Source: Acidaminococcus fermentans DSM 20731 (GTDB lineage: Bacteria > Bacillota > Negativicutes > Acidaminococcales > Acidaminococcaceae). From it: a DNA stretch of 64,000 bases. The stretch is taken from positions 124,001 through 188,000 of the forward strand of contig NC_013740.1 in the NCBI RefSeq assembly GCF_000025305.1, read 5' to 3'. Of the stretch, positions 14,263 to 18,392 are shown one piece after another. Numbering within the stretch: position 1 is the first letter of the stretch; each line of letters starts with the position of its first letter. The translations under genes and the position numbers were made by a program. A model generated the notes under the pieces. It worked only from the letters and a program-made list of their open reading frames with translations, was not told where the DNA came from and did no database searches.

Positions 14263-15468
14263 ATGGGAAAACGGTTTTTAATCTGGGACAATCCCCGGGA
14301 TGCACTGGTGAACCTGGTGTATTTCCTGATGATCCTGGGGGGCGTGAACATTTTCAGCGCCAGTTTCGTGGCGGCGGCGGATATGTTCGGCAACGGGTAC
14401 CATTATCTGATCCGGTATGCCATTTACGGGGCCATCGGACTGGGGCTGATGCACTGGGTGGGCCGGAAATGGGACTATCACCAGTTCTTCCGGGTTGACC
14501 AGCTGCTGTGCGTGGGCTGTACGGTCCTTTTGATTGCCGTGGACATTTTCGGCAAGGCCACCAAAGGGGCCCAGCGCTGGCTGATCCTGGGACCTTTTTC
14601 CTTTCAGCCTTCCGAATTCGTGAAACTGGCGGTGATCCTCCTGGGGGCCCATTTCCTGGGCCGGGTGATGGAACAGGGGAAAACACCCCATCTCCACCGG
14701 AAGGATACCTGTCAGGCCTTCCTGGAAGCGGCGTTCATGTCCTTCCTGGTGCTGATCCAGCCGGATATGGGGACGGCTTCCATTATCCTGACCCTGATGA
14801 TCGTACTGTACCTGCTGGCGGGACTGCCCTGGAAAGAATTCGGCATCCTGGTGGGGGTGCTCCTGGGCGGGGCTGTGGCGGCCGTGATCCAGGCTCCCTA
14901 CCGGCTGAACCGGATGCGGATCTGGCTGACGCCGGAACTGGATCCCCAGGGCAACGGGTACCAGGCGGTCCAGGCCAAAATGGCCATCGGCAGCGGGGGA
15001 ATCTTCGGTGAACCCTTCGGCATGGGCACCAGCAAGTTCTTTTACCTGCCGGAAGCCCATACGGATTTTGCCTTTGCCATTTTCTGCCAGGAATGGGGCT
15101 TTCTGGGAGCCCTGTTCCTGATGCTGGTATTCCTGCTCATGGGACTGGCCCTGTACCGGATCGGGCAGAATACCCAGGACCGGAAGGGGTTCCTGCTGGT
15201 CAGCGGGGTGAATTTCCTGGTGGTGGGCCAGGCCATTGCCAATATGGCCATGGTCTGCGGCATCCTGCCGGTAATCGGGGTTCCGCTGTCCTTCATCAGT
15301 TATGGGGGCACTTCCCTGATCATCACCCTGGTGGGCATCGGCCTGGTGCTTTCCGTGTACCGGATGGAAATGGAACGGGGAAAACAGCCGGCCGGGTCCC
15401 GGGTGCCGCCCTCCGGTAACAGACCGTTCCAGCCGGGACGGAAAGAGACGGGGAGGTGGACCCGGTGA
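14263..15468 (+). CDS. SEDS-family peptidoglycan glycosyltransferase (FtsW/RodA/SpoVE type)
   Basis: This 401-residue protein has about ten membrane helices and polymerises lipid II together with a class B penicillin-binding protein. SEDS hallmarks are GAQRWLILGPFSFQPSEFVK (about residues 103-122), LIQPDMGTA with the conserved Asp, and GIFGEPFGMGTSKFFYLPEAH-type sequence near residue 250. The C-terminal tail of about 30 residues is basic and Pro-rich. Its stop overlaps the GTG start of a class B PBP, so it is the matched partner. FtsW and RodA cannot be separated with certainty; the PASTA-bearing partner favours an FtsW/SpoVE role. Confidence 0.9.
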   Translation: MGKRFLIWDNPRDALVNLVYFLMILGGVNIFSASFVAAADMFGNGYHYLIRYAIYGAIGLGLMHWVGRKWDYHQFFRVDQLLCVGCTVLLIAVDIFGKATKGAQRWLILGPFSFQPSEFVKLAVILLGAHFLGRVMEQGKTPHLHRKDTCQAFLEAAFMSFLVLIQPDMGTASIILTLMIVLYLLAGLPWKEFGILVGVLLGGAVAAVIQAPYRLNRMRIWLTPELDPQGNGYQAVQAKMAIGSGGIFGEPFGMGTSKFFYLPEAHTDFAFAIFCQEWGFLGALFLMLVFLLMGLALYRIGQNTQDRKGFLLVSGVNFLVVGQAIANMAMVCGILPVIGVPLSFISYGGTSLIITLVGIGLVLSVYRMEMERGKQPAGSRVPPSGNRPFQPGRKETGRWTR

Positions 15469-17558
15469 AGATACCGCAGTTTTTGCAGAGAAAAAAGAAA
15501 AAAACGGGTCCGGCACCGGAAAAACCGGTGCTGAAGCTGGATCCCAATCACCAGGAAATCCTCCATGAGGGAAAGCTCCGGGCCGTGGGCCTGGGGAAAT
15601 TCCTGGGGCTGGCCGTGCTGGTCATTGTGGTCCGGCTGTTCTGGCTCCAGATTGTCCAGGGCAGTACCCTGGCCCAGGAGGCCAATGACCAGATCACCGG
15701 GGAACATACGGAAATCGCCCCCCGGGGCAGCATCGTGGACCGGAACGGGGAGGAGCTGGCGGTAAGCGTCATCAGCAAATCCCTCTATGTGGATCCCCAG
15801 GAACTGGTGGACAATCCGGACCGGTGGCCGGCGGGGAAAATGCCCAGCCGGGACCCCAAAAAGGTGGCAGCGGATGCCCTGGCACCGGTGCTGGGACTGA
15901 ATGCGAACAAACTGTACGAAGAATTCTGTGAGCCGGACCGGCGGTTCATCTGGGTGAAGCGGACCCTGGATCCCCATGTGGCGGACCAGGTGGAAGCCAT
16001 CCTGAAGGAACAGAAGCTCAGCGGGTTCCATTTCAAGGAAGAAAGCAAACGGTTCTATACGAAAAACGACCTGGCGGCCCAGGTCCTGGGCTTTGTGGGC
16101 ACCGATGACAAGGGGCTGGAGGGGGTGGAAGCCTCCATGGACGACCAGCTGAAGGGCCGGAACCAGAAAAAACGCAGCTTCTTCGACGCCAAGGGCAACC
16201 AGGTGGGCCAGAGTGCCATGAACCAGGTCCAGGTACGGCGGATGAACACGGTCCAGCTCACCATTGACGCCCGGATGCAGTTCATCCTGGAAAAGAGCCT
16301 GGATGAAGCCATCAAAAAGACCCATGCGGCCAGTGCGGCTGCCATCCTGATGGACCCCAACACCGGGGAGATCCTGGGGATGGCCAGCCGGCCCACCTTC
16401 GATCCCAACCATTTTGCCCAGGCCCCCAAAGGAGCCTATATGAACCGGGGCGTGGGCATCGTCTATGAACCCGGATCCGTGTTCAAACCCATTATGGGGT
16501 CCGCCGGGCTGATGGAAGGGGTCATCACCCCCAATACGCCCTTCAACGACCAGGGGTCCATCGACGTGGGAGGCCGGCGGATCCGGAACTGGGACGGCAA
16601 GGGCATGGGCCATGTGACCTTTACTGACGTGATCAAATTCTCCCTGAATACGGGGATGGCCGACCTGGGCCTGAAGCTGGGAGGCGAACGGGAAACCCAG
16701 TATGCCAAAGCCTTCGGCTTCGGCAGCGCCACCGGCAGTGATGTGCCCGGGGAAGAAGCGGGGATCCTGTACAACCCCAAGGATATGGTGCCTTCCGATG
16801 TGGCCACCATGGCCATCGGACAGGGGATTGCTGTGACTCCGCTCCAGATGCTCCGTGCCATTTGCGCCATTGCCAACGGTGGGAGCCTGGTAAAACCGTA
16901 TATTGTCAAAAAAGTCACAAGCCCGGATGGAAAAGTCCTCCAGGAAGGGAAAACAGAAGTGGTCCGCACGGTGATCACGCCGGAAGTGGCGGAAGAAATG
17001 CGGACCATGATGGAAAAGGTGGTTTCCGAAGGGGGCGGCAAAACGGCCCAGATCAAGGGCTACAAGATCGCCGGCAAGACTGGGACCGCAGAAAAACTGT
17101 CTCCCAAAGGCGGCTATATCCCCGGGGTGTACATTGCCTCCTTTGTGGGCTTTGTGCCCAGTGATGCCCCCAGATATGCCATGATCATCATGCTGGATTC
17201 GCCCAAGGGAGCCTTCTACGGATCCCAGGTGTCTGCGCCTATTTTCCGGGATACTCTCCAGCAGATCCTGGTGGCGGAAGGGGTCCAGCCCAGCAACTGG
17301 GACGGGCTTCCCACCGTGGAATCCCTGCTGGCCAAGACGGCCAAAGAGGCGGCGCCCCTGGCCACCCTGGAGGCGGACGGGAACGGAGCGGTGAAACTGC
17401 CCAACCTGGCCGGCCATGCCATCCGGGAGGTGGCCGCTGCCCTGAGTGGGGCCAACCTGGCCCTGATCCCCGTTGGCAGCGGTACCAGCTGGAAGCAGAA
17501 TCCCGCTCCGGGAACCATTCTCCACAAGGGAGATACGGTGACGGTGTATTTTCGGTAA
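15465..17558 (+). CDS. Class B penicillin-binding protein with PASTA domain (FtsI/SpoVD type)
   Basis: The 697-residue product is a membrane-anchored D,D-transpeptidase. Residues 1-20 are basic and a helix follows at about 40-60 (LGLAVLVIVVRLFWLQIV). The PBP dimerisation domain starts at RGSIVDRNGEELA. The transpeptidase domain has SxxK in EPGSVFKP (Ser near 340), SxN in FSLNTG and KTG in GKTGTAEKL. A C-terminal PASTA domain begins at KLPNLAGHAIREV. The start is the GTG with GGAGG eight bases ahead; it overlaps the upstream stop as GTGA. An earlier in-frame GTG overlaps the SD itself and was rejected. Confidence 0.93.
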   Translation: MKIPQFLQRKKKKTGPAPEKPVLKLDPNHQEILHEGKLRAVGLGKFLGLAVLVIVVRLFWLQIVQGSTLAQEANDQITGEHTEIAPRGSIVDRNGEELAVSVISKSLYVDPQELVDNPDRWPAGKMPSRDPKKVAADALAPVLGLNANKLYEEFCEPDRRFIWVKRTLDPHVADQVEAILKEQKLSGFHFKEESKRFYTKNDLAAQVLGFVGTDDKGLEGVEASMDDQLKGRNQKKRSFFDAKGNQVGQSAMNQVQVRRMNTVQLTIDARMQFILEKSLDEAIKKTHAASAAAILMDPNTGEILGMASRPTFDPNHFAQAPKGAYMNRGVGIVYEPGSVFKPIMGSAGLMEGVITPNTPFNDQGSIDVGGRRIRNWDGKGMGHVTFTDVIKFSLNTGMADLGLKLGGERETQYAKAFGFGSATGSDVPGEEAGILYNPKDMVPSDVATMAIGQGIAVTPLQMLRAICAIANGGSLVKPYIVKKVTSPDGKVLQEGKTEVVRTVITPEVAEEMRTMMEKVVSEGGGKTAQIKGYKIAGKTGTAEKLSPKGGYIPGVYIASFVGFVPSDAPRYAMIIMLDSPKGAFYGSQVSAPIFRDTLQQILVAEGVQPSNWDGLPTVESLLAKTAKEAAPLATLEADGNGAVKLPNLAGHAIREVAAALSGANLALIPVGSGTSWKQNPAPGTILHKGDTVTVYFR

Positions 17559-17573
17559 GGAAAGGAATGGAAG

Positions 17574-18392
17574 ATGGAACCAATCATTATGGCCGGGAAA
17601 CCGGTGGCGGAAGAAATCCGCAGAAATCTCCGGGAAAAGTTCGCCGGGAAGGAACTGACCCTGGCCACCTTTCTGGTGGGGGACAATCCGGCGGCCCATG
17701 TGTACAAACGGAGCCTGCTGAAGACGGCAGCCAGCCTGGGCATCCATACCCGGGATGTGGAACTGCCAGAAGGAGCCAGCCAGGAAGAAGCGGAACGCGC
17801 TCTCCGGGCTCTCAGTGAAGATCCCCGGGTGGACGGGATCCTGCCCCTGGTGCCTTTTCCCTGGCACATCAGCCGGATGCAGCTGATCCGGCAGCTGGAT
17901 CCGGAAAAGGACATGGACTGCATCCATCCCATCAACGGAGGGAAGCTGTACCTGGGGATCACCCCCTGGGGCCCCTGCACTCCCCGATCCTGCATGGCCC
18001 TGCTGGATTACTACAAGATCCCCCTGGAAGGGCAGCATGTGGTGATGGTGGGCTATGGAGAAGTGGTGGGACGGCCGCTGACCCTGATGCTCATGGGCCG
18101 GTACGCCACAGTGACCGTGTGCCGTTCCCGCACAAAAAATCTGCCTGCCATTACCAGGCAGGCAGATATCATCATCAGTGCAGTGGGCAAACCCGACCTG
18201 ATCACGGAAGACATGATCCGGGAAGGAGCCGTGGTGGTGGATGTGGGCATCAATTCCGTGGACGGGAAGCTGGTGGGGGATGTGTCCGAAGCGGCCAAAA
18301 AAGTCAAGGCTTCGGCCTACACCCCCGTTCCCGGCGGAGTGGGTGTGGTCAGCAACCTGATGGTCATGGAAACCCTCACCCGGCGTCTCTGA
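17574..18392 (+). CDS. folD: FolD-like protein with altered catalytic residues
   Basis: The 272-residue protein aligns along its whole length with methylenetetrahydrofolate dehydrogenase/cyclohydrolase: DGILPLVPFP, DPEKDMDCIHP, PCTPRS, a Rossmann segment MVGYGEVVGRP and TPVPGGVGVVSNL. Compared with human MTHFD1 and E. coli FolD from memory, the active-site Lys four residues after the conserved Tyr is Leu (VYKRSLLK). The Gln of the LVQLPLP motif is also Leu (ILPLVPFP). The Asp of KDxDG is kept. GRS becomes GYG and GGVGPMT becomes GGVGVVS. It may be a non-canonical paralogue rather than the housekeeping enzyme. It follows the PBP gene by 15 bp and abuts the next, convergent gene with no spacing. 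Confidence 0.82.
   Translation: MEPIIMAGKPVAEEIRRNLREKFAGKELTLATFLVGDNPAAHVYKRSLLKTAASLGIHTRDVELPEGASQEEAERALRALSEDPRVDGILPLVPFPWHISRMQLIRQLDPEKDMDCIHPINGGKLYLGITPWGPCTPRSCMALLDYYKIPLEGQHVVMVGYGEVVGRPLTLMLMGRYATVTVCRSRTKNLPAITRQADIIISAVGKPDLITEDMIREGAVVVDVGINSVDGKLVGDVSEAAKKVKASAYTPVPGGVGVVSNLMVMETLTRRL

Follow-up and report, generated by a model that had tools for sequence, protein, structure and literature searches.

The folD-like gene in a 64,000-nucleotide stretch of the Acidaminococcus fermentans DSM 20731 genome (the window) probably encodes a dehydrogenase-only FolD, with the cyclohydrolase step performed by a separate protein of the FchA/FTCD_C type, as judged from sequence comparison and from analogy with characterized enzymes. 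In the proposed mechanism, this FolD descendant would keep the dehydrogenase half of the reaction (methylene-THF + NAD(P)+ to methenyl-THF) but would no longer convert methenyl-THF to 10-formyl-THF, the cyclohydrolase half, since a hydrophobic pair has taken the place of Lys54, the general acid/base, and of Gln98, which assists it (E. coli numbering). The missing step would be taken over by the FchA/FTCD_C-type protein, encoded beside a formate-THF ligase gene. The loss of cyclohydrolase activity is argued by analogy with E. coli mutants, and we infer both the retention of dehydrogenase activity and the cyclohydrolase role of the FchA-type protein in this species.

The reading frame of the gene (Table 1) is uninterrupted from ATG to stop. 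Alignment of its product, referred to here as the query, to E. coli FolD bore out the original prediction that Leu occupies both the position four residues after the conserved Tyr and that of Gln98, that the Asp of the KDVDG motif is retained, and that the GRS and GGVGPMT motifs are altered. HMMER alignments between the query and solved FolDs were gap-free at the active-site positions, and no other Lys or Gln shifts into columns 54 and 98 when the query is aligned to E. coli FolD and the solved FolDs. The possibility of a second, canonical FolD elsewhere in the genome, which the original prediction had proposed to check, was rejected, as a search of the single contig (2.33 Mb, 99.96% completeness) gave no other FolD, the next match having an E-value of 0.32.

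Table 1. Features of the folD-like gene and its surroundings in the window, and additional loci in other genomes (positions are those of the window unless a locus is named)
Feature	Position	Strand	Basis or remark
PBP/FtsI-like gene	15456..17558	+	ORF; ends 15 bases upstream of folD
folD-like gene	17574..18392	+	ORF, PF00763 and PF02882; product of 272 aa, a putative 5,10-methylene-THF dehydrogenase lacking cyclohydrolase activity
Tyr44, equivalent to E. coli Tyr50, kept	17703..17705	+	alignments
Leu48, replacing catalytic Lys54 of E. coli FolD	17715..17717	+	alignments
Leu92, replacing Gln98 of E. coli FolD	17847..17849	+	alignments
Asp115, equivalent to E. coli Asp121, kept	17916..17918	+	alignments
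GYG, replacing GRS in the NAD(P)-binding loop	18051..18059	+	alignments
GGVGVVS, replacing GGVGPMT	18333..18353	+	alignments
Transposase-like ORF near FTCD_C	L152:8126-9703 (genome C1 286125-287702)		presumed, recognized by eye
Second, distant FolD of G007	L033:5142-6092	-	
Second, distant FolD of G008	L034:5303-6208	+	
Genomes with two FolD-like genes, tandem	L364/L378, L366/L379, L367/L377, L368/L381, L372/L382, L365/L384		
Genomes with two FolD-like genes, others	L369/L380; L374/L388, L375/L389, L376/L387, L370/L386, L371/L385		

The query belongs to the FolD family, as both THF_DHG_CYH domains are present at full length and above cut-off (PF00763, E 3.1e-26; PF02882, E 2.7e-54). The features of a bifunctional FolD are found in part, with the Tyr50 and Asp121 equivalents present and Lys54 and Gln98 absent. 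The matched NCBI models label the family as bifunctional, and the query scored below the cut-off of every one of the 25 NCBIfam models listed, out of 32 matched (best, 247.1 bits versus a cut-off of 465); these scores weigh little because those cut-offs are lineage-specific. An AlphaFold2 model built on a 16-row alignment had a mean pLDDT of 93.6, and the top 40 entries in its ranking against solved structures were all FolD or MTHFD proteins (Z 37.0 to 21.4), including 4cjx, an MTHFD (Z 37.0), E. coli 1b0a (Z 32.9), and yeast Mtd1 1edz (Z 29.0). The MTHFD/FolD fold is thus predicted by the model to be unchanged. Domains, fold, Tyr50, Asp121, and overall length are common to the query and to bifunctional enzymes such as E. 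coli FolD and human MTHFD1/MTHFD2, with an identity in structural alignment of 38% to 1b0a and 42% to 3p2o, whereas the query differs from them in the Leu residues at positions 54 and 98 and in the changed GRS and GGVGPMT loops. Upstream of folD lies an ORF that, from its sequence, we take to be a PBP/FtsI-like gene, and the two are possibly co-transcribed, judging by their spacing. Matches of 401-450 aa to the C-terminal 450 aa of this PBP were found beside folD in all nine genus loci, and no match was found in 21 other family loci with flanks of up to 1.5 kb on each side.

The replacement of both residues is shared by the whole family, the Acidaminococcaceae, to which the record Acidaminococcaceae bacterium STF2_16 (L153) also belongs; it agrees with same-family genome G028 in the C-terminus of FolD and in the position of FchA. 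Of the other 54 genomes of the family in which FolD was matched, none has Gln98, and none of the 53 with a readable residue 54 has Lys54; every readable same-family row was doubly replaced. The dN/dS values between the query and eight genus members ranged from 0.12 to 0.23, which indicates that the variant is kept by purifying selection; a pseudogene, a sequencing error, or chance was rejected on the basis of the open frame, the family-wide conservation, and these values. In a wider set of 120 relatives, which includes the query genome and for which every FolD match was fetched regardless of FchA, 118 FolD rows were fully readable: 40 with Lys/Gln, 77 with both residues replaced (45 Leu/Met, 13 Leu/Leu, one Leu/Thr, and the remainder other hydrophobic pairs), and one with Gln/Gln. 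The idea that Lys54 and Gln98 always change together was rejected, as it held in 117 of these 118 rows, the exception being Gln/Gln, and rows combining Lys with Glu98 were found later. Several further columns vary together with the hydrophobic pair, namely 123 (Phe to Leu), 170 (Ile to Val), 265 (Pro to Ser or Val), and 268 (to Thr or Asn) in E. coli numbering. Of these, positions 170, 265, and 268 also contact carolacton in E. coli FolD, where Lys54 anchors the inhibitor, according to the available part of PMC5688156. The GYG loop is more restricted, being present in all nine genus members, including the query, and absent from the remaining family rows; outside the genus it occurs only in L404 and L410 among 357 rows. 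The adjacent CHSKT reads CRSRT or CRSKT in three aligned genus rows. The corresponding loop of E. coli FolD, assayed with NADP+, is GAS (PMC5688156), and the change from GRS to GYG may have altered the NAD/NADP preference.

The catalytic residues of FolD have been described as strictly conserved among orthologues (PMC3338484), and mutants inform on their role, as far as the available portions of the reports go. In E. coli FolD, the K54N substitution made cyclohydrolase activity undetectable and left about 19% of dehydrogenase activity, whereas Q98H left about 1% and 8%, respectively (PMC5688156). In the dehydrogenase step of the human enzyme, the Lys was assigned to binding and not to catalysis, and its part in the cyclohydrolase reaction could not be settled (PMC9173628). 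Taken together, the mutant data and the binding role of the human Lys predict that the natural pair would abolish cyclohydrolase activity while dehydrogenase activity would still be possible. Loss of the Lys alone would be costly, given that E. coli K54N retains only a fifth of its dehydrogenase activity. Spontaneous hydrolysis of methenyl-THF is possible and was proposed as a turnover route in the FolD mutants (PMC5688156), and therefore a partner enzyme need not be essential.

A candidate for the separate cyclohydrolase was found as the single PF04961 (FTCD_C) match in the query genome (C1:285409-286029, 229.7 bits). Among solved structures, its closest relative is 7vg4, annotated as "Methenyltetrahydrofolate cyclohydrolase" (E 5.2e-42), which we take to be the FchA of Methylorubrum, followed by FTCD 1tt9 (E 4.7e-28) and the cyclodeaminase 1o5h (E 7.8e-17), all members of the same family. 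The gene begins 19 bases after the formate-THF ligase gene, and folD lies elsewhere. It forms part of a histidine cluster in the order HutD, formiminotransferase, formate-THF ligase, FTCD_C, and, further on, a HutH-like lyase (PF00221). A transposase-like ORF follows FTCD_C directly and separates it from the gene for the HutH-like lyase. Since the FTCD_C gene sits in a histidine cluster, its product could be a cyclodeaminase only; in the query genus, the protein may have cyclodeaminase activity, cyclohydrolase activity, or the two together. In a tree of 70 FTCD_C rows, seven of the nine rows from genomes with only Lys/Gln FolD fall in one starred group of 17, and 16 of these 17 rows come from genomes with formiminotransferase, so the members of this group are likely cyclodeaminases. 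The query FTCD_C belongs to another starred group, whose 14 rows derive from genomes in which FolD lacks Lys/Gln; four of these genomes have no formiminotransferase. This position favours cyclohydrolase ability in the partner.

FchA accompanied the absence of a Lys/Gln FolD in nearly all cases. Among the relatives, including the query, strong FchA (at least 150 bits, weaker matches counted as absent) was detected in 68 of the 72 genomes that lack a Lys/Gln FolD versus 11 of 39 with one, a tally that omits G017, G043, G057, and G080, whose FolD rows are partial. The four genomes with neither are G011, G025, G034, and G051 (72, 81, 92, and 60% complete, respectively). Formiminotransferase was found in nine of the 11 Lys/Gln genomes with strong FchA. 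Of the genomes devoid of a Lys/Gln FolD, 46 carry FchA yet gave no match to formiminotransferase; histidine breakdown is therefore no explanation for FchA in those 46 relatives. A sample of 249 genomes from the phylum of genome G127 gave strong FchA (E at most 1e-45, weaker matches counted as absent, fused frames retained) in 88 of 90 genomes without a Lys/Gln FolD versus 35 of 144 with one. Of the 239 genomes with a FolD match in this sample, 134 were classed by reading the residues and 100 by two profile scores only, and the tally of 234 excludes five set aside for short or weak matches and the 10 without a FolD match. The two exceptions are G399, with folD at a contig end, and G333. Strong FchA was also seen in five of the 10 genomes without a FolD match at E 1e-20 (G244, G284, G290, G314, and G384). 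In the named genomes (50 of 80 fetched, comprising nine with a non-Lys/Gln FolD, two of which repeat relatives, and 41 others), FchA was present in nine of nine, counting G125 at 147.8 bits, versus any PF04961 match in five of 41, four of these five matches lying in frames of 522-620 aa; such long fused frames were counted as absent in the pooled tallies. The sets overlap: going by FolD sequence, G120 is the same as G028, G121 as G041, and G240 as G065, while coordinates show G343 and G367 to be repeats of G099 and G106. About a quarter of genomes with a Lys/Gln FolD carry FchA too.

The classing by score separated the rows that were read first but is not clean, as genomes with a Lys/Gln FolD occur at score differences of 0 to 12. 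Fifteen phylum genomes were first classed as non-canonical without strong FchA, 14 by score and G399 by reading; searching those 14 revealed a Lys/Gln FolD in 13 (12 with a second, divergent copy) and none in G333. Conversely, 30 of the 33 genomes scored as non-canonical with FchA were read, and none holds a Lys/Gln FolD. When only read genomes are tallied, strong FchA occurs in 157 of 163 versus 37 of 122 (duplicates merged), or in 155 of 161 versus 11 of 94 minus the L333-L362 genomes, and these figures are outcome-selected, given that the phylum rows were read partly by FchA: L303-L332 were for the most part non-canonical candidates that had FchA close by or elsewhere in the genome, L333-L362 were high scorers from genomes with PF04961, and a later batch was scored non-canonical with FchA. 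The conclusion is therefore based on the relatives and phylum tallies given above. Fisher values calculated for such tallies take no account of relatedness. At the level of loci, FchA was included in the retrieved stretch for 39 of 115 class-by-locus entries whose FolD is not Lys/Gln versus none of 94 with Lys/Gln, for entries in which flank lengths vary, some loci overlap, and part were chosen with FchA known. In addition, a FastTree gene tree of 287 FolD rows requires about four changes between canonical and non-canonical states, two of them forced by starred branches, and therefore most of the association between FolD state and FchA reflects shared ancestry and few independent events. Restricted to starred branches, the tree yields a single independent pair, which does not allow a test by independent pairs; with all branches there are four. 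An earlier tree of 197 rows placed 83 doubly replaced rows on one side of a branch with a support of 61. The trees omit seven rows (fragments, duplicates, and one with X).

Other interpretations of the query were weighed against this evidence. The protein could still be bifunctional, with another residue or a bound water replacing Lys54 and FTCD_C serving only histidine breakdown, which we consider unlikely. The location of FTCD_C inside a histidine-degradation cluster in the query genus is consistent with it, as are the unsettled contribution of the Lys to cyclohydrolase activity (PMC9173628) and the presence of Lys50 two residues from the vacated position. However, Lys50 aligns with E. coli Lys56 (Tyr+6), and this column is already Lys or Arg in 154 of 163 Lys54/Gln98 rows, so Lys50 was rejected as a stand-in for Lys54; moreover, E. 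coli K54N has Lys56 intact, yet its cyclohydrolase activity is undetectable (PMC5688156). The 46 genomes that have FchA and lack both a Lys/Gln FolD and formiminotransferase also argue against bifunctionality. A loss of cyclohydrolase that went unreplaced in the query genus, with spontaneous methenyl-THF hydrolysis sufficing and FTCD_C acting as a cyclodeaminase, would fit the turnover route proposed for the E. coli mutants and the position of FTCD_C in the hut cluster. This is quite improbable, considering the near-universal presence of FchA where a Lys/Gln FolD is missing, the very slow growth of the E. coli K54N strain (PMC5688156), and FchA being the closest solved relative of FTCD_C.

The original prediction had also suggested that the protein may have taken on another substrate. 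The altered pocket lining, for example at columns 123, 170, 265, and 268, could be read in this way, but all 131 of 131 rows with the hydrophobic pair retain the equivalents of Tyr50 and Asp121, the residues that hold the substrate in position, the query is the sole FolD of its genome, and its predicted fold is the same as that of an MTHFD. This part of the prediction found no support, and a change of substrate appears very improbable. Its other part, a possible loss of cyclohydrolase activity, is well supported by the family-wide replacement, the E. coli mutants as far as described in the available text, and the co-occurrence with FchA.

Further FolD variants were observed among these genomes. 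A group of 34 rows (among them L303-L310, L312-L320, L391-L397, L399-L401, L404, L406, and L408-L411) keeps Lys54 and carries Glu in place of Gln98, mostly with a VGRGETVGKP loop and often with fchA directly adjacent; strong FchA was found in 33 of these 34 genomes, which were read mostly because FchA presence was already known. Rows L321, L398, L402, L403, and L405 have a loop of this same type with Leu at 54 and Leu or Met at 98, a possible sign that the hydrophobic pair arose a second time. Gln or Ile at position 54, in many cases with Glu at 121, was found in nine genomes without a Lys/Gln FolD, eight of them with FchA. Twelve genomes encode two FolD-like proteins (Table 1), one with Lys-Gln-Asp and a companion that combines Gln or Ile at 54 with Glu121, and strong FchA was found in none of the 12. 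GWSIEIGKP and GDSFDL are examples of the loops in the Lys-Gln-Asp copies, and a glycine of the nucleotide loop is missing from GDSFDL; the arrangement looks like a split of FolD into two specialized paralogues. Within the query genus, G007 and G008 possess a second, distant FolD with Ile/Phe and Ala/Phe at 54/98, less than about 7 kb from FchA.

Some elements of this arrangement are already known, namely a monofunctional methylene-THF dehydrogenase in yeast and separate dehydrogenase and cyclohydrolase enzymes in acetogens, as far as the accessible parts of the sources describe them. Yeast Mtd1 (1edz), an NAD-dependent 5,10-methylene-THF dehydrogenase that probably also lacks the active-site Lys, has the same fold and would work like the query if the dehydrogenase-only reading is right, although it is far from it in sequence (26% identity in structural alignment, E 3.4e-08 by sequence). 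Titles in the reference list of PMC11064299 describe Mtd1 as a monofunctional dehydrogenase, whereas the body of that paper, contrary to those titles, calls it cyclohydrolase-only. Separate annotated fchA and folD genes, often close together, are described for the acetogens and acetate oxidizers C. autoethanogenum, T. acetatoxydans, and Sporomusa carbonis in the available parts of PMC9040625, PMC3584212, and PMC12003927, which do not mention Lys54 or Gln98, with the Sporomusa folD labelled as bifunctional (PMC12003927), and titles in the reference list of PMC7793690 indicate that a dehydrogenase and a cyclohydrolase were purified as separate enzymes from Clostridium formicoaceticum. In the query genome, FchA is not adjacent to folD. 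A link between the Lys54/Gln98 state and FchA was not found in the literature searched, which consisted of titles and the beginnings of abstracts, with most subscription journals outside it.

The query probably exemplifies a division of labour that recurs among these bacteria. A broader proposal, to which we would give somewhat less than an even chance, is that FolD was reduced to a dehydrogenase several times in Bacillota, with the cyclohydrolase held elsewhere each time: a hydrophobic 54/98 pair with FchA, as in the query; Gln98 to Glu with FchA; and Gln or Ile at 54 (often with Glu121) with either FchA or a second, Lys-Gln-Asp FolD. Residues 54 and 98 would then predict reliance on FchA, and the histidine-pathway FTCD_C of Acidaminococcus would act as both cyclodeaminase and cyclohydrolase. 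Whole lineages lack catalytic residues that had been described as strictly conserved, and therefore it is probably incorrect to label their FolD as bifunctional, and metabolic models would attribute one of the two steps to a gene that does not carry it out. The state of residues 54 and 98 combined with the presence of FchA would provide a simple sequence rule. These lineages are also predicted from their residues to be naturally insensitive to carolacton, and they offer natural sequences for probing hydride transfer without Lys54.
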